IMG/VR virus record: IMGVR_UViG_3300025869_000062
Coordinates: 1 to 29,423 of that record
Source: a virus
Direction: 5' to 3' (one strand)
DNA length: 29,423 nucleotides
The position numbers and the translations under genes were made by a program. The number at the start of each line of letters is the position of its first letter. Position 1 is the first letter of the stretch. The notes beneath the pieces were generated by a model. It was given only the letters and a program-made list of their open reading frames with translations. It was not told the origin of the DNA and ran no database searches. Of this stretch, positions 2,476 to 11,676 are shown in pieces.

Positions 2476-2877
2476 ATGGCATACTCAGAGCAAGTATTAG
2501 ATCATTACGAAAACCCACGCAATGTGGGTCGGTTTAATGACGAAGATGAAGACATTGGCACAGGCATGGTCGGTGCACCTGCTTGTGGTGATGTAATGCG
2601 TTTACAAATAAAGGTATCCGAAGATGGAATTATCCAAGATGCTAGGTTTAAAACCTACGGATGCGGAAGTGCTATCGCTTCTTCCAGCCTCCTTACCGAA
2701 TGGGTTAAAGGTCGCAGTCTTGACGAAGCTGGGAGTATTACCAACTCCCACATCGCTGAAGAACTCGCCTTACCTCCGGTCAAAATCCACTGTAGTGTCC
2801 TTGCAGAAGATGCGATCAAAGCTGCGATAAAGGACTATAGAGATAAACATGATAACGTTGACGCAGTCAGCATCTGA
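2476..2877 (+). CDS. iscU: IscU Fe-S cluster assembly scaffold protein, 133 aa
   Basis: The scaffold on which [2Fe-2S] clusters are built from sulfur delivered by cysteine desulfurase IscS, then handed on with the chaperones HscA/HscB. The start MAYSEQVLDHYENPRNVG is canonical for the family. All ligand positions are present at the same numbers as in E. coli IscU: C37 and D39 (PACGD), C63 (YGCGS), H105 and C106 (IHCS), plus the HscA-binding LPPVK at 99-103. Length is normal. Nothing is truncated, so it should be functional and able to use host IscS and HscA/B, which are not encoded in this window. It overlaps iscA by 29 bases. No ribosome binding site is seen; a terminator hairpin stands just upstream. 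An auxiliary metabolic gene, probably captured from a bacterial host. Confidence 0.97.
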   Translation: MAYSEQVLDHYENPRNVGRFNDEDEDIGTGMVGAPACGDVMRLQIKVSEDGIIQDARFKTYGCGSAIASSSLLTEWVKGRSLDEAGSITNSHIAEELALPPVKIHCSVLAEDAIKAAIKDYRDKHDNVDAVSI

Positions 2878-3172
2878 CCACATAATCAACTATATCAAAC
2901 AACGTGGTAAAGGTATCGGCATCCGAGTTGGGGTAAAAACCACGGGTTGTTCAGGATGGGCATATGTCGTAGAACCCGTTGACGTAGCAGATGAGTTTGA
3001 TAATCGGTTCACTGATAAAGGTATCGATATCTACGTTGATTCAAAAAGTTTAACATATATTGATGGTAGTGAAATGGATTATGTAACGAAAGGCCTGAAC
3101 GAAGGCATTCAATTTAAGAACCCTAAAGTCAAAGCAGAATGCGGCTGCGGCGAAAGCTTTTCTGTCGTATAA
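2849..3172 (+). CDS. iscA: IscA-type (A-type carrier) Fe-S assembly protein, 107 aa
   Basis: A-type carriers bind iron or a cluster and pass it to target apoproteins. The three conserved cysteines are present: C34 (TTGCSGW) and the C-terminal pair C98 and C100 (ECGCGESF), in a protein of 107 residues, the same length as E. coli IscA. The typical SGWAYVVEPVD and D-Y-V segments are also there. The start at 2849 lies inside the iscU frame, giving a 29-base overlap and strong translational coupling. The stop at 3170-3172 lies within a perfect late promoter box for the next gene. ErpA, or SufA-like members, are alternatives within the same family. Confidence 0.95.
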   Translation: MITLTQSASDHIINYIKQRGKGIGIRVGVKTTGCSGWAYVVEPVDVADEFDNRFTDKGIDIYVDSKSLTYIDGSEMDYVTKGLNEGIQFKNPKVKAECGCGESFSVV

Positions 3173-3212: not shown

Positions 3213-4610
3213 ATGGCACAATGGAATAGAGATACACAAAGTTTCCTTCAAAAAGATACTACCCACCCGGGTCGAGAAGATTTTACCGGCGTTACTATAG
3301 CTGATCGATTTGGTTCAATCACTGATTGGCGTCCAGATTTTACCTCAAAGAATCGACTCAAGATGTCTGCGCCAGCAACGGTATTTTGGAATTCATTTAG
3401 TGCGTTTGCTGATAACGATACCTTTGTCACAACGACTTCAGGTGACGGAAAGGCCTATATTAATAACGACGCTACTGTACCAGAAGACTTTGATCCAATC
3501 AGTCCAGGTACAGATCAGGTTCTTGAAAAGTCAGTTATCCTTCGAGTCTCAACGGCTGGAGATAAAGTAATTCGTCAAAGCAGACGAGTCATTCCTTATA
3601 TCCCAGGCAAAGAACAATTCGTTTCATTAGCATGTCGATTTGCTCCACCAACAGAATTCATTCGTCGACGCATTGGGATGTTCGATGAAGAGAATGGAAT
3701 GTTCTTTGAAGACGATGGTGAAAATTATTATGTAGTACTTCGTAAAAATGGAGTTGAAACAGTTCGAGTTGCTCGTGAAAACTGGAATGGCGATAAATTA
3801 AACGGTGTTGGTAGAAGTGGTATTCTTTTCGATTCCACTAAGCAGCAATTGCTCGGTATCGAATACGAGTGGTATGGAACTGGTATGGTTCGTTTTGGTT
3901 ATGTAATCGATAATGAACTTCATGCTATCCACACAATCTATAACGCAAATAATACTGTAGGTACTTGGACAAAGACACCTAATCTGCCACTTCGGTTTGA
4001 ACATGAAGCATTGCCAGGTTGGGTCGGTGGCCCTCAGTATCTCTATCAATCTTCATCCTCTGTTATTGCTGAAGGGGGCATCGAAGATCTTGGTGTATTG
4101 AATAATTCAATTTCTGGTTTAAATACTACGACAACGCCTCCTACAATGTCTGTCGCTGGGACTAATCTATCAGTAGCTAATACATTCTTTCCTTTGTTGA
4201 GCATCAGACTTAAAGATGCGACACTCGATTCTTTTGTATCACCTCAGGCATTTCAAATCTTCACAAAAGATAATGCAGATTGTTATTTTGTGATTGTAAG
4301 AAACCCAACACTTACGGGTGCTGTGTTTAATATTGCTGATAATGATTGGATTGGTGCTGAGATTGATGATCAGGCAACCGCTGTGGATTTTGACATTACT
4401 GATGTAATATATTCAGGCTTTTTCCCCGGTAGCTCATCAACACCTATTTCATTACCTATTTCTGCACAACTCCAACTTGGACGTACATTTGCTAACCCAG
4501 GGGCACCAGATTTTGGAAATCTAACCTCTGATGTGATTACCATATGTGCAGCATGTCGTGGTGCAACTACTCAGGCATTTGCTTCATTGACTTGGTTAGA
4601 ACAGCCGTAA
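3213..4610 (+). CDS. Virion structural/adhesin-type protein, 465 aa
   Basis: A soluble beta-rich protein without a signal peptide, preceded by a perfect late promoter and AGGAA at 3203-3207, so it is almost certainly a virion component. Residues about 150-245 form a module (RIGMFDEENGMFF, then NWN-x-D-x-L-x-G, then IEYEWYGTGMVRFGYV) that is clearly related to residues about 247-365 of the 930-residue minus-strand protein at 19369-22161. The shape suggests a lectin-like or concanavalin-like sandwich. The C-terminal half is Ser/Thr/Asn-rich. The stop overlaps the next start as TAATG. A tail or fiber-associated structural protein is the best guess; direct function unknown. Confidence 0.82.
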   Translation: MAQWNRDTQSFLQKDTTHPGREDFTGVTIADRFGSITDWRPDFTSKNRLKMSAPATVFWNSFSAFADNDTFVTTTSGDGKAYINNDATVPEDFDPISPGTDQVLEKSVILRVSTAGDKVIRQSRRVIPYIPGKEQFVSLACRFAPPTEFIRRRIGMFDEENGMFFEDDGENYYVVLRKNGVETVRVARENWNGDKLNGVGRSGILFDSTKQQLLGIEYEWYGTGMVRFGYVIDNELHAIHTIYNANNTVGTWTKTPNLPLRFEHEALPGWVGGPQYLYQSSSSVIAEGGIEDLGVLNNSISGLNTTTTPPTMSVAGTNLSVANTFFPLLSIRLKDATLDSFVSPQAFQIFTKDNADCYFVIVRNPTLTGAVFNIADNDWIGAEIDDQATAVDFDITDVIYSGFFPGSSSTPISLPISAQLQLGRTFANPGAPDFGNLTSDVITICAACRGATTQAFASLTWLEQP

Positions 4611-4948
4611 TGTACACATATGACTTATCTGTGATTGGTCCTTTGGGTAGGACATGGTGGACTGATCGAGGCTTAGAACCTCGCTATGACTGTGCAGGTG
4701 GTAGACTTCACGCGTATGATGTGGTTGTCGAAAATGGGCCTGCACTCCAAGAATATCCTATAGCTGTAATGGATCAATTCTCATGGTCAAAATTAAACAT
4801 TTGGTTTCTACAATTACAAACTGAAGAAATACTAACTTTAGCAGAATTACTTGATAATTTTGTCGAGGCAACAAATACGGAAATTGGCTGGGTACTTGTT
4901 GACGGCGCTCGACAAGAAGTTGATTATCCTACTGCCGGCGAGATCTAA
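4610..4948 (+). CDS. Hypothetical late protein coupled to a virion protein, 112 aa
   Basis: The start is set at 4610 because the ATG overlaps the preceding TAA (TAATG); an upstream in-frame ATG at 4544 would lie inside the other gene. The protein begins MYTYDLSVIGPLGRTWW and has many aromatic residues, an acidic middle helix (TEEILTLAELLDNFVEA) and no membrane segment. Co-transcription and translational coupling suggest it works with the 465-residue virion protein, perhaps as an assembly partner or minor virion component. No family recognised. Confidence 0.75.
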   Translation: MYTYDLSVIGPLGRTWWTDRGLEPRYDCAGGRLHAYDVVVENGPALQEYPIAVMDQFSWSKLNIWFLQLQTEEILTLAELLDNFVEATNTEIGWVLVDGARQEVDYPTAGEI

Positions 4949-4952
4949 TTTA

Positions 4953-4960
4953 TATAAATA
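4953..4960 (+). promoter_or_regulatory. T4-type late promoter for the exported-protein cassette, TATAAATA
   Basis: A perfect TATAAATA immediately after the stop of the preceding gene and 20-38 bases upstream of the first exported-protein gene. No terminator or other clear promoter is seen before 8256, so this box may drive all six genes of the cassette late in infection. Confidence 0.85.
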
Positions 4961-4998
4961 GATATTGAATAACTTTGTAAATGATATGGTTGAATGAA

Positions 4999-5568
4999 AT
5001 GCGATTTTTACTCTTTACTATTGGGCTTTGTTTTATTGTTTTTGCAAATGCGGAAGAAACTACAGCACCGATTACGCCGGATGATACAATTCGGACTGAA
5101 TCAATAACTGATAGTACAGTGAATTCAAATTCGAATCAGACGACTACACTAAAGTCGCCTCCCGCATCGGCGATCACGCCAACAATAAACACGTCCAATT
5201 CTGATCTTTGTACATTTGGTGTAGCTGGGGCTATCCAAACGCAGATACTTGGTATCTCGACCGGAACCCAGGTAACAGATGAAAACTGCGAGCGACTAAA
5301 GCTTTCTAAAACCCTGTTTGATATGGGTATGAAGGTTGCAGCAGTTTCTACATTATGCCAAGATCGTCGTGTATTTGATGCTATGATGATGGCGGGTACT
5401 CCCTGTCCTTATGATGGCAAAATCGGACCCGACGCGAAATCAGCATGGGCATTAGACGAAAGTCAAAAGCCTTTGTTAAACAAAGACAAGGAGGGAATAA
5501 GCGATGGCACGAAGACACTACTGGGTGGCGCTGGTGTTGCTGCTCTGCTCCTCTTACTCTTACTCTGA
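4999..5568 (+). CDS. Exported protein with C-terminal hydrophobic anchor, 189 aa
   Basis: I place the start at 4999 because it gives a clean Sec signal peptide (MRFLLFTIGLCFIVFANA); the ATG at 4981 would add six residues including a Glu. Neither has a good Shine-Dalgarno. After a Thr/Ser/Asn-rich linker (about residues 20-65) comes a compact four-cysteine domain (DLCTFGVAG, NCERLKLSK, TLCQDRRVFDAM, TPCPYDGKIG), probably with two disulfides. The C-terminus ends in an alanine/leucine-only hydrophobic run, a membrane anchor. It overlaps the next gene by 65 bases. Topology predicted: periplasmic domain tethered at its C-terminus. The role is unknown; similar four-cysteine proteins occur in marine T4-like phages as I recall. 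Confidence 0.82.
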   Translation: MRFLLFTIGLCFIVFANAEETTAPITPDDTIRTESITDSTVNSNSNQTTTLKSPPASAITPTINTSNSDLCTFGVAGAIQTQILGISTGTQVTDENCERLKLSKTLFDMGMKVAAVSTLCQDRRVFDAMMMAGTPCPYDGKIGPDAKSAWALDESQKPLLNKDKEGISDGTKTLLGGAGVAALLLLLLL

Positions 5569-6391
5569 ACACGTCGATCTAAGTCCTCAGTACGGTACAA
5601 CAAGTAATGCAGCTAGTCGTGGTTATGATTGGGTCATGCAAAATGTACTGCCCCAACAAGCCGGACTCCTAGTCAACCAAGTAGCATATCGCTACACTAC
5701 TGTAAAAGAACAAACAGATCAGATGGTAGTCCATGTCCAAAACGAGAATGCTCGTGGGCCTGGTTACATCTTTCGCGACTCTACAGATTGGACAGGATTG
5801 CCAGGCAATACTTTAACTAAGGTCGTGCCCATAGTCAATGGCATTGACATTTCTTATTGGGGTCGAGGTTCTATAGAGGTTGAAGGTACTGGATCGGTAC
5901 AATCACCTGAAGTATTTTACACATATACATACGATCCGTGTTTTGATCCACAAACGAATATAGAATGCCCTGGTTATATCGATCCATTTGTGGTTGAATT
6001 GACCGAGGTAGAAGTAGTAGATCCACTCGATGATGATAACGTACAAAACGAGCTGGATCGTAAGACAAATTTACGTCAACAAAAAGAAGACGAGAAAGAA
6101 AAAGCCAGAAAGAAAGCTCTGGCTGAAGACAAGATTGACCAACTTTTGGAACAGATCTTAGGCGTTGCTGATTCTAGTGAGTTCTCTTTAGAACAAATAC
6201 TCTTACATCAGCAATTGATGAACCTAGGTGGTCTGCCCATAAGTTATCAAAGAGCTCTAGTTGGTGGAGATTATTCCGAAGGAGTGGTCTTGAAGGATGC
6301 GAGGCTCCCCAACAATTCTAGAGGATTGAGAGTAGGTATGGCGCAAGAATTATTGCATCAGGAAATGATTATGCTACAATATGCCAAGTAA
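5504..6391 (+). CDS. Exported protein with coiled coil, 295 aa
   Basis: A Sec signal peptide (VALVLLLCSSYSYS, cleavage before EH) starts the protein; the LLLC there is not a valid lipobox. Residues about 25-150 are a beta-rich domain with GPGYIFRDSTDWTGLPGNT and SYWGRGSIEVEG, followed by a cysteine pair (CFDPQTNIEC) likely to be disulfide-bonded. A charged helix (NELDRKTNLRQQKEDEKEKA, about 183-202) forms a probable coiled coil, then a helical C-terminal region. A strong AAGGAGGG at 5487-5494 inside the preceding gene sets the start, giving a 65-base overlap. It is probably periplasmic and a partner of the neighbouring exported proteins. Function unknown. Confidence 0.82.
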   Translation: MARRHYWVALVLLLCSSYSYSEHVDLSPQYGTTSNAASRGYDWVMQNVLPQQAGLLVNQVAYRYTTVKEQTDQMVVHVQNENARGPGYIFRDSTDWTGLPGNTLTKVVPIVNGIDISYWGRGSIEVEGTGSVQSPEVFYTYTYDPCFDPQTNIECPGYIDPFVVELTEVEVVDPLDDDNVQNELDRKTNLRQQKEDEKEKARKKALAEDKIDQLLEQILGVADSSEFSLEQILLHQQLMNLGGLPISYQRALVGGDYSEGVVLKDARLPNNSRGLRVGMAQELLHQEMIMLQYAK

Positions 6392-6417
6392 AACACTTTT
6401 TTAAAGGGAGAACTTAA

Positions 6418-6921
6418 ATGTTCAATAAAACACTTATATCATGCGTTGCGTTTGTGTCCTTTTCGTTTTCGGCTATGGCAACAGAGATTCCCGTTACTGG
6501 TAACGTGGCCTCTAAATGCGTTGTGACACAAGACACACCCGGGGTTTTTGGTAACCCAGATCCATCTACGTTGAGTACTGACCCAACGAATGGTGGAATC
6601 GATCCGGTAGTTAGATACGACGTGATACAGGCAAGCTTTTATATGGCTCGCATTAGTGCACCGAATTCTTTCTCGGATAGCCCGGCTTTATCAGATACGG
6701 TTGTTTGGACTACTTCAGTCTCAACTGATCAGGTATCTGACGCCTCCATGTCAGCTTACGATACCGCTAAGGTAGAGTACGATAATGTAACAGAGGTTGA
6801 TTTAACTGTTGCAGGTTCAACTTGGTTCAAGGTTGAAGCAGAGGCTGATTATGGCTTTGATAAGGCTTTTCCGGGCGGAAGTTACCAAGCTTCTGTGGTC
6901 GCGGAATGCATCGCAATTTAA
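6418..6921 (+). CDS. Exported pilin-like beta-sandwich protein, 167 aa
   Basis: A Sec signal peptide ends SAMA before TEIPVTGNVASKC. The mature protein of about 145 residues is all-beta with exactly two cysteines in the mature region, one near the start (ASKCVVTQ) and one near the end (VVAECIAI), plus a terminal strand GGSYQASVVAECIA. The layout of an N-terminal G-x-V-x-x-x-C strand and an aromatic P-x-G-x-Y-x-A-x-V final strand resembles fimbrial or spore-coat-U-type subunits, though the cysteine spacing is not that of classical chaperone-usher pilins. Ribosome binding site AAAGGGAG. The next gene looks chaperone-like, which strengthens the idea of an exported fibre or coat. Confidence 0.82.
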   Translation: MFNKTLISCVAFVSFSFSAMATEIPVTGNVASKCVVTQDTPGVFGNPDPSTLSTDPTNGGIDPVVRYDVIQASFYMARISAPNSFSDSPALSDTVVWTTSVSTDQVSDASMSAYDTAKVEYDNVTEVDLTVAGSTWFKVEAEADYGFDKAFPGGSYQASVVAECIAI

Positions 6922-6942
6922 AGGAAACAAAGGATCTTACAA

Positions 6943-7329
6943 ATGCGTTATATTATGCTTATACTATTATTAGGAATTTGTGGGTTGAAGAATGTTTCAG
7001 CCCATGAATTTCTTCCAACCTACCCTAGGTTGACATTATCATATGTTCCAGGTATTCTGCAAACGCAGATGGAACTTTTTAATAGACGAGAAGATATTCA
7101 ATATTATGAATACAGTGTGTGGTCGAAGGACTTTGAATCAAAGGTTCCTTTTGCCACAAATGAGAAGATTCAAAGAATTGGTTATCTTGAAAAGAAAGTT
7201 ATTGACATATACATTCGTGCTAAAGATAAAGATCGCGCAGTGTATATTTGCTCTAAGAGCAAAATACTTAAACAGGATGTGTCTCGAACCACGATGGCTT
7301 CAAGGATATGTTCTAAGATAAAAGATTAA
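6943..7329 (+). CDS. Exported small protein, possibly pilus-chaperone-like, 128 aa
   Basis: A Sec signal peptide ends VSA before HEFLPTYPRLTLSYV. The mature part (about 108 residues) reads as seven short strands: TQMELFNRREDIQYYEYSVW, a loop, KVPFATNEKIQRI, then KKVIDIYIRAKDKDRAVYIC. The succession resembles the N-terminal immunoglobulin domain of periplasmic pilus chaperones (strand with N/R after it, Y-x-V, P-F-x-x, final strand), but the second domain and the chaperone catalytic Arg/Lys pair cannot be assigned, so this is weak. Two cysteines (YICSKSK and RICSKIKD) may pair. Preceded by AAAGGA at 6921-6926 and AAAGGAT at 6929-6935. Confidence 0.8.
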   Translation: MRYIMLILLLGICGLKNVSAHEFLPTYPRLTLSYVPGILQTQMELFNRREDIQYYEYSVWSKDFESKVPFATNEKIQRIGYLEKKVIDIYIRAKDKDRAVYICSKSKILKQDVSRTTMASRICSKIKD

Positions 7330-7336
7330 ATTAATT

Positions 7337-7783
7337 ATGAGAATCTTTGTAATTGTAATATTGATAAGTGTGGCTTTTAATGTTAGAGGCGAATCGAGTT
7401 CATTGAACTTGGCTCTGCCAAACACAGCAAGTAGCTATGCATCGGATCGTGTAAGGGCTGGCCAGTTAGAATGTCAGAATGCTATTGGTGGGGCAACCAC
7501 TATGGAATTCGGAGTTGTTGGCATCATTAATCAGAATGGCCCTTACGATAATGTATACGGGAGTAATACTTACGTAAGTCCCGATGGGTGGGATCAAAAT
7601 GGTTTGGTAAAAGATGTTGGTGTTTATGCCAAGATCACCATTCCATTAGATAAACCTAAAGAGCGTATGAATTGTAATGCACTCTTTAAACTTGAACTTG
7701 AACGACGACGTTTGGAAATCCAGAAACTTCAACAAGAAGTCGCTAATTTGAGAGCTCTCAAATTTGAAGACGACGAAATGTAA
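7337..7783 (+). CDS. Exported coiled-coil protein, 148 aa
   Basis: A signal peptide (MRIFVIVILISVAFNVRG) is followed by a globular region with two cysteines (LECQNAIGG and MNCNALF) that bracket a beta-rich stretch (TMEFGVVGI, VGVYAKITIPLD). The C-terminal 45 residues are a charged coiled coil (LELERRRLEIQKLQQEVANL) ending in an acidic tail. The start has no visible Shine-Dalgarno and lies 7 bases after the preceding stop, so it may be coupled. The coiled coil could pair with that of the next gene product. Function unknown. Confidence 0.8.
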   Translation: MRIFVIVILISVAFNVRGESSSLNLALPNTASSYASDRVRAGQLECQNAIGGATTMEFGVVGIINQNGPYDNVYGSNTYVSPDGWDQNGLVKDVGVYAKITIPLDKPKERMNCNALFKLELERRRLEIQKLQQEVANLRALKFEDDEM

Positions 7784-7797
7784 AAGGATAGAGGACA

Positions 7798-8256
7798 ATG
7801 GCAGAAGTTGAATTTGGAGGCATGACCTTCAAAGGCGGGAAGATGATGATTCTTCTCACTGCATTAAGTACTCTGGGTGGAGCCAGTTGGGGAGTCTTTG
7901 AGTTTTATAAAGACTATATGGATATGAAAGAAATCATCCAGAATATAGATGTGGGTGCGATAGAAGCACGGAATAATGTTATCGAAACAAAACTTGATGA
8001 GGCAATCGATTATTCAAGAAGCATTAAAAACGATTTGAGAGATGACTTCAATCGAATGGAAAAAAATGTAGACAGAATCGAAGACCAAAATCGAGAAATG
8101 CAAGATAAGGTTAAAGATATGATTGACCGTGCAACGGAACGATTTGATACCAAGAGAGAAAGTCTATCGACTGATACTCGATTGCAAATTGAAGCGTTAG
8201 ATGACCGTCTTAACAAAAAGATTCAACAGGTGCTTGACAATCCTCTAGCCGATTAA
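7798..8256 (+). CDS. Membrane-anchored coiled-coil protein, 152 aa
   Basis: A short cytoplasmic or periplasmic lead (MAEVEFGGMTFKGGK) precedes one hydrophobic segment (MMILLTALSTLGGASWGVF, about residues 16-34), followed by about 110 residues of nearly continuous charged heptads (for example IKNDLRDDFNRMEKNVDRIE and MQDKVKDMIDRATERF). It ends in NPLAD. AGAGGA (7789-7794) sets the start. It is the last gene of the exported cassette and has no cleavable signal. It could anchor the cassette to the inner membrane or span the periplasm, as phage spanins do, but no lipoprotein partner is present, so spanin function is not claimed. Confidence 0.83.
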   Translation: MAEVEFGGMTFKGGKMMILLTALSTLGGASWGVFEFYKDYMDMKEIIQNIDVGAIEARNNVIETKLDEAIDYSRSIKNDLRDDFNRMEKNVDRIEDQNREMQDKVKDMIDRATERFDTKRESLSTDTRLQIEALDDRLNKKIQQVLDNPLAD

Positions 8257-8271
8257 CGGAAGGAGTAAGTC

Positions 8272-8460
8272 ATGCGGGTTAAAGTAACGTTTCATAACGG
8301 GTATTCACTCGTTGGTGATTTAGAGGTTGGAGGTGACGAAACCATCTTAGGCGATGTATTAAACGACAGACGAAAGTTTATCGAAATTGCAAGACCAAAC
8401 GGTGCGTTGCTTCACATGAACAAAGAGGCGGTTGCCTATATCGTTAAAGAGGCAGATTAA
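8272..8460 (+). CDS. Small beta-barrel-like protein, copy 1 of 3, 62 aa
   Basis: Shares a common plan with the proteins at 8660-8857 and 8865-9071: V-K-V-x-F-H-x-G in the first strand, then a G-x-L strand, a central L-x-D-V-L-N-D-x-R-x-F-I motif, and a final strand N-K-x-x-V-A-Y-I. The plan is close to a small Sm/SH3-like barrel and to a family I know as DUF6812 (RLSDxLN). GGAAGGAG at 8259-8266 is a strong ribosome binding site. No catalytic residue is apparent; a binding or adaptor role is plausible. Confidence 0.78.
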   Translation: MRVKVTFHNGYSLVGDLEVGGDETILGDVLNDRRKFIEIARPNGALLHMNKEAVAYIVKEAD

Positions 8461-8461
8461 C

Positions 8462-8647
8462 ATGAATAATGTAATCGAGCTTTACGACAGTATAGGAAGA
8501 TTTCACGATAATGCTAGATTGATCGATGTAGAACCAGAGGTAGTCAATGAACAGGTTCGTAGTCATGACTATCAAAAGGATATGGCATTGGTTTGTTCTT
8601 TTGGTCTTAACGTGGGATTTATAATAGGACTCTTTGTATTTTTATAA
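8462..8647 (+). CDS. Tail-anchored membrane peptide, 61 aa
   Basis: The start at 8462 (MNNVIELYDSIGRF) lies one base after the preceding stop; the longer frame from 8432 would overlap the previous gene without need. The first 40 residues are polar and helical, and the last 20 (ALVCSFGLNVGFIIGLFVFL) form a single C-terminal membrane helix that runs to the end of the protein. This is a tail-anchored topology with the bulk facing the cytoplasm. It sits between copies 1 and 2 of the barrel paralogs, so one of these may be its soluble partner. Function unknown. Confidence 0.72.
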   Translation: MNNVIELYDSIGRFHDNARLIDVEPEVVNEQVRSHDYQKDMALVCSFGLNVGFIIGLFVFL

Positions 8648-8659
8648 TAGGTGAATTGT

Positions 8660-8857
8660 ATGATTGAAAGTAAAATAGTTAAAGTATGTTTACAATTGAT
8701 TGATGGTTCCCGTTGGGTAGATTGCGAAGTTTTTCTACCTACGGGAGACCGTTTATCAGACGTGATGAATGATGAAAGAAATTTCTTGCCACTCAAGAGA
8801 GCTGGTAAAGATCAAATTATATCAAAGGGTCAAATAGCTTTTATTAACGAGGTGTAA
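8660..8857 (+). CDS. Small beta-barrel-like protein, copy 2 of 3, 65 aa
   Basis: The start is chosen at the ATG at 8660 (MIESKIVKV) because AGGTGA at 8649-8654 is correctly placed for it; a GTG at 8651 lies within that Shine-Dalgarno. The paralog signature is clear: VKVCLQLIDGS in the first strand, GDRLSDVMNDERNFLPL in the centre and SKGQIAFI at the end. It has the best match of the three to the RLSDxLN/xxFIxL pattern of DUF6812-like proteins. Divergence from copies 1 and 3 is large, so the duplication is old or the copies arrived separately. Confidence 0.76.
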   Translation: MIESKIVKVCLQLIDGSRWVDCEVFLPTGDRLSDVMNDERNFLPLKRAGKDQIISKGQIAFINEV

Positions 8858-8864
8858 ATTATAA

Positions 8865-9071
8865 ATGAAAGTTAAGGTACTATTTCATGATGGTACTGCT
8901 ATGTTTGGAAAATTGATAGGGGACGAAATAGAATGTTTAAAGCCAGCACAAGCATTAGATTGGATAATGAACAACAACAATGATTTTATCTACGTCGAAG
9001 ATTGGATCTCGGCTCAGCACGTTCAGGTAAATAAGAACGGGATAGAGTCAATAGTTCTCGACGATTATTAA
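8865..9071 (+). CDS. Small beta-barrel-like protein, copy 3 of 3, 68 aa
   Basis: Starts MKVKVLFHDGTAMFGKL, closely parallel to the start of copy 1 (MRVKVTFHNGYSLVGDL). The central motif is altered (ALDWIMNNNNDFIYV) and the last strand is VNKNGIESIV. GAGGTG at 8849-8854, across the previous stop codon, serves as ribosome binding site. The stop codon TAA is the beginning of an 11-bp tandem repeat. It presumably forms the same fold as copies 1 and 2, and the three may make a mixed oligomer. Function unknown. Confidence 0.76.
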   Translation: MKVKVLFHDGTAMFGKLIGDEIECLKPAQALDWIMNNNNDFIYVEDWISAQHVQVNKNGIESIVLDDY

Positions 9072-9095
9072 CACAAAATTAACACAAAATTAACC
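9068..9095 (+). repeat. 11-bp tandem repeat, about 2.5 copies
   Basis: The unit TTAACACAAAA occurs twice exactly (9068-9078 and 9079-9089), followed by a partial third TTAACC. It overlaps the end of copy 3 and opens the 85-base intergenic gap before the next gene. It may be an operator-like site or slippage product; no clear sigma70 -10/-35 pair could be placed beside it. Confidence 0.7.
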
Positions 9096-9156
9096 AGACC
9101 TTTACTGTATTAATACCTCTTATTGAATAGATACACTTTTAATAAAGGAGTTAGTA

Positions 9157-9495
9157 ATGAAAAAGAACTGGAAAGAAACTCTATTACTCGTACTGTTCAT
9201 TGGGTCAGTGTTTATGATGTTAAGTCTAGACATCAAAGCCGCGCCCTATGTGGAATGGAAGAACGAATACGAACTCAAAGAGTGGACTCACACTAAAACA
9301 ACCAACCATTTCCGTGTTGGTTATAAAACAGACGACAACCTTTATTTTGAGATTGGCCCTATGACTGATGGCCATTCTTATGAAGCAGGCTACAAGTTCA
9401 AGTTTGATGCTGTAACAGTTAAAGGTAAACTGGAGACCAAGGACACTGGAAATGCTAAGACCAAGGTTGAGACTGAAGTAAGATACACGTTCTAG
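9157..9495 (+). CDS. Small predicted outer-membrane beta-barrel protein, 112 aa
   Basis: A signal peptide or anchor (TLLLVLFIGSVFMMLSL) ends IKAA before PYVEWKNEY. The mature 80-odd residues are a run of alternating strands (HFRVGYKTDDNLYFEIGP, SYEAGYKFKFDAVTVKGKLE) ending in VETEVRYTF, with the C-terminal phenylalanine typical of outer-membrane barrels. At this size it could form a small barrel only as an oligomer or be a periplasmic sheet. AAAGGAG at 9145-9151 sets the start. It is the second predicted surface protein of the window after TorF, and both are likely to change the host envelope. Confidence 0.8.
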   Translation: MKKNWKETLLLVLFIGSVFMMLSLDIKAAPYVEWKNEYELKEWTHTKTTNHFRVGYKTDDNLYFEIGPMTDGHSYEAGYKFKFDAVTVKGKLETKDTGNAKTKVETEVRYTF

Positions 9496-9496
9496 T

Positions 9497-9504
9497 CATA
9501 AATA
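9497..9504 (+). promoter_or_regulatory. Possible late promoter, CATAAATA
   Basis: One mismatch (first base) to TATAAATA, directly after the stop of the preceding gene and 26 bases before the TTG start of the next. Position and spacing fit the perfect boxes elsewhere in the window. Confidence 0.45.
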
Positions 9505-9530
9505 CTATCTTTGTCTATTGGTAGGTAATT

Positions 9531-10217
9531 TTGAAAGAATACAGTCAAACTTATAAAGAAGAACATCAAAACAAAGAGTATCGGTTCCGTCTCACAAGTC
9601 AAGTAGAAGAGATGATCCAGGCTTATCACAATGATCCCACAGATATTTGGATTAATTCGTTTGGTGGTTGTAGATCTAATTGGATCTGCGATTTGCTTAA
9701 TGATCAATACAATACTCGATGTAAAGGATACCAAATAAAAGGTGCTCATGCTTTAAGGCCCCAAGATGTTCCGGTTCAGATGGGCATATTTTGTTACGTT
9801 GAGGATCTTGGTGTGGCTTTATCTTCGTCGGACGCCCATCTCGAAACAACTTGGCATGTCTACGAAAAAATGTTAGAATCGAAACATAATGACCGACTTG
9901 ATTATGACATGGACAAATATTTAGATTTGATCGATCAGCAAATAGACAATTGGACAACCAATCCCCACTTTCCGGTATTGATTCTGAATACCGATACTAT
10001 GGCAAATAAAGAGACATATGATCTCTTTTTGAGCTTATTCAATGTCGAAGATCTGCCGATGCGACAACGACGAACCAAAAGGATGAACAGAAGCTTCAGG
10101 CCTTGGTCTCGTAAAATCAATAAAATAAATAAAAAGCTACGGGCTCTACCCAATTGGGAAATCCGAATGCCTTATAATACATTCATCAAAAATAAGCACG
10201 TTCTTATTCCAAAATAA
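9531..10217 (+). CDS. Sulfotransferase-like protein (tentative), 228 aa
   Basis: The start is a TTG at 9531, with AGGT just upstream (GGTAGGTAATT); no ATG fits the N-terminus. Residues 38-56 (DIWINSFGGCRSNWICDLL) resemble the 5' phosphosulfate-binding loop of sulfotransferases (W-x-x-S-x-P-x-S-G-x-x-W), but Pro and Ser are replaced, so activity is doubtful. A middle region (YVEDLGVALSSSD) could correspond to the second nucleotide-binding segment. The C-terminus is strongly basic (RQRRTKRMNRSFRPWSRK). A cytoplasmic modifying enzyme of glycan or protein is possible; a glycosyltransferase-like or nucleic-acid-binding protein is an alternative. Confidence 0.72.
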   Translation: MKEYSQTYKEEHQNKEYRFRLTSQVEEMIQAYHNDPTDIWINSFGGCRSNWICDLLNDQYNTRCKGYQIKGAHALRPQDVPVQMGIFCYVEDLGVALSSSDAHLETTWHVYEKMLESKHNDRLDYDMDKYLDLIDQQIDNWTTNPHFPVLILNTDTMANKETYDLFLSLFNVEDLPMRQRRTKRMNRSFRPWSRKINKINKKLRALPNWEIRMPYNTFIKNKHVLIPK

Positions 10218-11103: not shown

Positions 11104-11676
11104 ATGAATGTATTCGTACTAGACGAGTCGCCAGAAGAGTCAGCTCAACAACAATGTGATAAACATATCCCCAAAATGGTGGTGGAATCAGGACAAATGC
11201 TTTCTACTGCCCATCGTATGGTGGATGGTGAGCGACGCCAAGAGCGTAATAAAAATGGACGGATGGTTACTACCTATACCTTACCAGATCGTCGAGAAAC
11301 GATATTATACAAAGCAGTGCACTATAACCATCCTTGTACCGTCTGGACTCGAGAGTCTGACTTGAATTATCGTTGGCATTACCGCCACTTCATAGCTCTG
11401 TGTGATGAATATACCCATAGGTATGGTAGAGTACACAAGACAGACAGGAAACTACGAGAAGCTCTCGCACAACCACCCCTCAATATCCCCCGTTTTGGGA
11501 AACGTACTCCCTTTCCATTAGCCATGGGCTCTAACCCCGAATGTATGTTTCCCGAAGACCCCATAAAATCCTATCGATTGTTCTATCAGACCAAGCAAGA
11601 TCGCTTCAAAATGGTCTGGACCCGACGTGAAAAACCGGAATGGTTTAATTACAAAAAAGTGTTGACATTTGGTTAA
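11104..11676 (+). CDS. Conserved phage protein, possibly DNA-glycosylase-like, 190 aa
   Basis: A conserved T4-superfamily protein by pattern: MNVFVLDESPEESAQQQCDK, then H-x-x-K-M-V-V-E-S-x-Q-M-L-x-T-A-H-R, a middle NHPCTVWTRES, DEYTHRYGRVHKTDRKL, and a C-terminal SYRLFYQTKQDRFKMVW with PEWF. It recalls proteins annotated in relation to pyrimidine-dimer DNA glycosylases (PF03013-like: D-K-x-x-x-K-x-x-x-E-x-x-Q), which would act in DNA repair, but this link is from memory and not secure. It is soluble. The next promoter's -35 element lies just before its stop codon. Start by the first ATG, 2 bases after the preceding stop; no clear ribosome binding site, so probably coupled. Confidence 0.82.
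   Translation: MNVFVLDESPEESAQQQCDKHIPKMVVESGQMLSTAHRMVDGERRQERNKNGRMVTTYTLPDRRETILYKAVHYNHPCTVWTRESDLNYRWHYRHFIALCDEYTHRYGRVHKTDRKLREALAQPPLNIPRFGKRTPFPLAMGSNPECMFPEDPIKSYRLFYQTKQDRFKMVWTRREKPEWFNYKKVLTFG

Follow-up and report, generated by a model that had tools for sequence, protein, structure and literature searches.

What do six consecutive late genes of a T4-like phage contribute, when the products of all six appear to be sent into the envelope of the host? The question arises from a cassette in the window, by which we mean the whole stretch of DNA analysed here, a complete IMG/VR virus record of 29.4 kb (29,423 nucleotides). The gene content of the window points to a fragment of a T4-like myovirus, and its gp23 is nearest to those of the Sinorhizobium phages phiN3/phiM12 (63%) and the Methylophilales phage Melnitz (61%). 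We call the six products P1 to P6.

The surroundings of the cassette have some features of their own. Two predicted outer-membrane beta-barrel proteins flank it, a Gcw_chp family protein (1800–2429; E 9e-12) and a protein like cyanophage Phage_OMP (9157–9495; E 1e-4, below the cut-off). Genes for a NifU/IscU-like Fe-S scaffold (2476–2877; PF01592, E 1e-53) and an A-type carrier (2849–3172; PF01521, E 5e-19) stand in tandem and overlap, and 32 of 86 loci again have the scaffold gene close to the cassette. A pyrimidine dimer DNA glycosylase-like gene (PF03013, barely above the cut-off) lies at 11104–11676.

P1 to P6 form one conserved late operon

The T4-type late promoter element TATAAATA is present in exact form at 4953–4960 on the + strand, as the first-pass annotation had recorded. 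Its first base is 46 nt 5′ of the P1 start codon at 4999 (MRFLLF...), a start that we preferred over 4981 from the relatives; the P1 query sequences themselves started at codon 5002. We observed seven copies of the element in the window, all pointing in gene orientation, against 2.1 expected, and only 1 of 100 shuffles reached seven. Among the relatives, 35 of 60 distinct upstream regions have TATAAATA 27–68 nt before P1, whereas the element precedes P6 in none of 50. The region 4500–9600 has no terminator-like sites on the + strand and no excess of sigma70-like sites. The earlier description of six closely spaced genes on the same strand with no terminator between them was thus borne out, and the search for independent promoters and terminators between the genes spoke for a single unit.

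Next, we compared the gene order among relatives. With P1 as the seed, IMG/VR yielded at least 587 relatives, and the best 80 loci were read. The order P1-P2-P3-P4-P5-P6 and the strand were constant in these loci, and absent members lay mostly past the contig or locus ends. A further 151 locus records, many of them on the same contigs as the P1-seeded loci, came from searches with P5 (385 relatives) and P3 (at least 587); all six genes were present in 130 and consecutive subsets in the others, with no violation of order or strand. The conserved order that had been proposed as a check was therefore unbroken in both sets.

Each of the 80 relatives has an overlap of 65, 68, 80 or 83 bp between P1 and P2. 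In the window this overlap spans 5504–5568 (+ strand), where the hydrophobic tail of P1 and the signal peptide of P2 are read from the same DNA in different frames. Overlaps of 16 or 4 bp between P3 and P4 and between P4 and P5 are also frequent. Such overlaps imply translational coupling. As the order was never violated, the P1/P2 overlap occurred in all 80 relatives and TATAAATA preceded P1 in 35 of 60, we concluded that P1 to P6 constitute one conserved late operon. The notion of a late-transcribed, co-inherited set of exported proteins is strongly supported by the late promoter, the constant gene order, the overlaps and the export signals described below.

Extra genes are inserted chiefly in the P5–P6 interval, where the gap reaches about 870 bp. 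Ten six-gene loci encode there a small protein whose C-terminal segment is hydrophobic (e.g. L038:5537-6001), and this protein recurs just 5′ of P1 in 12 Mosig-type loci; a relative, L165:5415-5894, matches phrog_32327. This recurring protein is a possible further partner of the module. In a few loci a transglutaminase-like cysteine proteinase (Peptidase_C93, below the cut-off; e.g. L094:4471-4887) is found between P5 and P6.

Export signals, cysteines and membrane anchors

We then analysed the six proteins (all genes on the + strand) with rule-based tests for signal peptides, lipoboxes and cysteines, using 46–63 distinct family members per protein. A hydrophobic N-terminal region was detected in 62/63 members of P1, 59/59 of P2, 52/52 of P3, 51/51 of P4 and 47/48 of P5, and signal-peptidase-I-like sites were counted in 63, 56, 52, 51 and 48 of the same members, respectively. 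A lipobox was found in no member of P1–P4 or P6 and, in weak form, in 3 of 48 P5 members. Conserved cysteines of the mature proteins number four in P1 and two, as one invariant pair, in each of P2 to P5; P6 has none. The Sec-type signals and the paired cysteines previously claimed for the first five products are thus conserved across the family.

P1 (4999–5568), which is shared with SAR11 and Roseobacter phages, carries the four invariant cysteines and a hydrophobic C-terminal tail that runs to the last residue, in line with the single C-terminal anchor described before. P2 (5504–6391) starts 65 nt inside the tail of P1; it has a charged helical stretch and a conserved C-terminal region. The invariant cysteines of P3 (6418–6921) are Cys34 and Cys164, and those of P4 (6943–7329) are Cys103 and Cys123. 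P5 (7337–7783) has the conserved segments EFGVVG... and DVGVYAKITIP before a C-terminal coiled coil. From its sequence layout, P6 (7798–8256) consists of an N-terminal TM segment and a long coiled coil, so that the sixth product is indeed a membrane-anchored coiled coil. Coiled coils had also been claimed in two exported proteins; by our heuristic the claim holds for the C-terminal helix of P5, but P2 has only the charged helical stretch.

Of 48 distinct six-gene members, 45 have the motif NPL within the final 12 residues of P6; the P6-like protein has it there in 45 of 45 HTVC115P-type and 40 of 40 Mosig-type members. It is near-universal in the P6-like proteins of three phage groups (e.g. 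L102, L106), though their coiled coils differ.

Predicted folds of P3, P4 and P1

P3 and P4 share a reading frame, and we folded them as one chain from the window DNA read through the P3 stop, with 88 aligned rows; P1 was also modelled. The joined model has a mean pLDDT of 84.5, with both cores above 90, and a pTM of 0.51.

The P4 part (199–303; pLDDT mostly above 90) matched domain 1 of DraB (4djm) with a Foldseek E of 2e-4 and a VIA Z of 9.4, and SafB, FimC, Caf1M and PapD with VIA Z of 8–9. With high confidence, we therefore predict a single-domain PapD-like chaperone fold for P4, which agrees with the chaperone-like product suggested by the first-pass annotation. An unrelated Ig-like domain, CsxA, ties with DraB against P4 (Z 9.5); therefore, the match indicates the fold and is not proof of function. 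Mature P4 has about 108 residues and forms one domain, the second Ig domain being absent. Its F1–G1 loop is about 13 residues long and FGS-like, and each of the F1- and G1-equivalent strands carries one cysteine of the invariant pair. No Pfam PapD match was obtained in 49 members, and hhalign gave no match to FimC.

P3 is confidently predicted to be a beta-sandwich. Its mature N-terminus has the conserved motif [VI]x[IV]xGxVxxxC (hydrophobic-x-G-x-V-x-x-x-C), which is disordered in the model and resembles that of the E. coli K-12 Fim subunits. An hhalign comparison with Fim pilins matched weakly on this motif (E 0.0036, probability 9%), against 0.04–0.13 for the controls P1, P2 and P5. Adhesin domains of the MSCRAMM type likewise align with P3 (Z 7–7.8). 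The VIA-align list for the joined model was taken up by the P4 domain, so that the absence of pilins beside P3 in it is uninformative. The earlier pilin-like assignment is a lead; Pfam gave no pilin family match and the Fim profile match is weak. A BFVD structure search gave no clear match. The P1 model was poor (pLDDT 61), with no PDB match at Z ≥2.

A reduced form of the module in other phages

P1 was present in 11 of 50,697 phage records, and the named hosts of the P1-bearing phages are all SAR11 or marine Rhodobacteraceae. No matches to P2, P3 or P5 were found among phage isolates. The first-pass annotation had mentioned similar proteins in marine T4-like phages; such proteins do occur in uncultivated contigs, but not among the isolates as far as P2, P3 and P5 are concerned. 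In the isolates that were read, the gene after P1 encodes an exported and often long second protein, a TM coiled coil comes next, and P3–P5 are absent. Since the isolates carry this trio without P3–P5, the module exists in two forms: T4-like phages have the six genes, and other phages have a P1-P2-P6-type trio. P2 matched the long second protein of the pelagiphages weakly at its C-terminus (E 7e-4, probability 27%), and the two long versions of the latter matched each other well (96%). Matches in genome collections resemble phage contigs within MAGs and single-cell genomes, two Alphaproteobacteria SAGs among them.

Searches against known families and systems

No named family was found for any of P1–P6 in Pfam, NCBIfam, PADLOC or PDB sequences beyond coiled-coil noise from P6. 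PHROG matches were to function-unassigned families (P1 to phrog_20531, E 2e-13) or were coiled-coil noise, and PDB sequence searches with the P1, P3, P4 and P5 profiles gave nothing useful. Individual cassette genes are on deposit as hypothetical proteins. In a limited literature search, curli clusters of pelagiphages were described and the six-gene module was not.

Some annotations on related genes look spurious. P6-like genes are labelled 'lysozyme' in CRP-207 and CRP-810 (the CRP-207 protein has no Pfam lysozyme domain), and genes like P1 or P2 are labelled 'OmpA family' or 'TonB'. Matches to phrog_739 in isolates were uninformative, as it was also detected in all 14 controls; the GTA holin search of the large contigs was run without a positive control. 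An anti-phage defence system is unsupported, with PADLOC giving just the P6 noise. As a system, the module fits no known kind among those tested.

Possible functions of the module

The reading that we tentatively favour, and that we hold to be possible rather than probable, is a late, inner-membrane-tethered periplasmic complex working at lysis or release. This role is favoured because of the late timing and the neighbouring genes. In Mosig-type loci with room, the trio is directly 3′ of an o-spanin gene in 42 of 50 and of an i-spanin gene in 32 of 50, and in the isolate Mosig it is directly 3′ of a 3TM holin gene. In one locus of the six-gene form, L097, a 3TM holin lies two genes past P6. 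In the six-gene group (7 kb on both sides), an i-spanin is near in 5 of 25 loci and a lysozyme in 6 of 25, and lysis genes lie anywhere from <1 kb to tens of kb away, the latter in G006. Counting against a release role, lysis genes are not reliably close to the six-gene group and the phages already own spanins; six of eight large six-gene contigs have their own Rz/Rz1 pair and lysozyme, apart from the cassette.

In the proposed mechanism, P6, by its N-terminal TM segment, and P1, by its C-terminal anchor, would be held in the inner membrane, most of each protein lying in the periplasm. P2 and P5 would be exported partners with helical or coiled-coil segments, and P4 may serve as a small periplasmic chaperone whose likeliest client, chiefly by adjacency, would be P3; the joined model gives no support for a P3–P4 interface. 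The assembled complex might then act as an accessory to the phage's holin, lysozyme and spanins, targeting the periplasm or outer membrane of hosts that are probably Alphaproteobacteria. That P3–P5 are absent from the relatives counts against reading their role from these phages. It is unlikely that the module is an usher-less chaperone–subunit system, in which a one-domain PapD-like chaperone delivers a donor-strand-type subunit to an inner-membrane-tethered, periplasm-spanning assembly acting on the host envelope at release; such a system would represent a new class among the lysis or envelope machines of phages.

The alternative that survives best, although still rather unlikely, is superinfection exclusion, in which a complex of the periplasm and inner membrane would keep competing phages from passing their tails or DNA into a cell that is already infected. 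The inner-membrane-anchored, periplasmic and predicted disulfide-bonded products are similar in architecture to known exclusion proteins such as Sp and Imm of T4, and the module is spread over phages with common host groups. However, phage exclusion genes are usually early, whereas P1 has a late promoter, and PADLOC and NCBIfam gave no match past the coiled-coil noise.

It is also unlikely that the infected cell displays a surface fibre or sticky layer, with P3 as a donor-strand-type subunit and P4 as its chaperone, for a purpose like that of the curli proposed for pelagiphages. The PapD-like domain-1 fold of P4, the disordered pilin-like N-terminus of P3 and its adhesin alignments are consistent with a fibre. 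However, the outer-membrane usher (PF00577) was found in 0 of 8 large six-gene contigs, which may be fragments, and CsgG in 0 of 9 records; the usher was detected in the E. coli control and CsgG in four control genomes. These absences therefore argue against a standard fibre. In addition, profile searches of 49 members returned neither a pilin nor a PapD family, and the P1-P2-P6-type core occurs without P3–P5.

Lysis-timing control of the T4 RI kind, with a sensor in the periplasm holding the holin back or setting it off, is quite improbable: a holin or spanins are close by in several relatives and the exported disulfide proteins have membrane anchors, but a set of six co-conserved proteins is large for this task and no antiholin similarity was found in PHROGs or Pfam.

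With at least 587 IMG/VR relatives each of P1 and P3, the module is a common marine-phage feature without an assigned role. Its core crosses phage families infecting SAR11 and marine Rhodobacteraceae, which are among the most abundant ocean bacteria. If the favoured release complex exists, it adds a component to Gram-negative phage lysis besides holin, endolysin and spanin; if the module makes a fibre or shuts out rivals, it is an envelope system of a new kind made by phages. The cultured reduced-core phages Mosig, HTVC115P, Baldr and CRP-207 make it testable.

Comparison with known systems

FGL chaperones carry a disulfide-forming cysteine pair on the F1 and G1 strands (PMC4133393). P4 is like the FGL chaperones DraB, SafB and Caf1M in its predicted domain 1 fold and in its cysteine pair on the equivalent strands (PMC4133393), but differs from them in having one domain, a short F1–G1 loop, no detectable sequence similarity and no usher.

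A curli or type VIII secretion cluster has been described in pelagiphages (PMC9599517, PMC9004378, PMC7029224). Like the module, it comprises several genes for exported envelope proteins, is common to marine phage families and has no assigned benefit. Unlike it, the phages tested here have no CsgG and the cassette lacks curli genes. As the published clusters consist of other genes, we rejected an identity with curli/T8SS.

P6 resembles the i-spanin of the two-component spanins Rz/Rz1 (PMC6139136) in its N-terminal TM segment and periplasmic coiled coil, as judged by sequence, and partner genes overlap in both systems; the operon, however, has no lipoprotein partner, and canonical spanins are encoded elsewhere in six of the eight large contigs. 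We therefore rejected P6 as the spanin of six-gene phages, because these usually carry a separate Rz/Rz1 pair. The fusion aid that had been suggested earlier is thus unlikely in the sense of a spanin; the association with lysis is suggestive, mainly in relatives.

The closest parallels are Pelagibacter phage HTVC115P (gp54-gp53-gp49), Mosig (Mosig_202-201-200), Baldr, CRP-207 and CRP-810. These phages belong to different families and lack P3, P4 and P5, and the second protein of the pelagiphages, at ~450–760 aa, is much longer than P2. Like the six-gene form, however, they carry a P1 homologue (~31–60% identity); after it come an exported protein of larger size and a TM coiled coil with NPL at its end, all with function unassigned.
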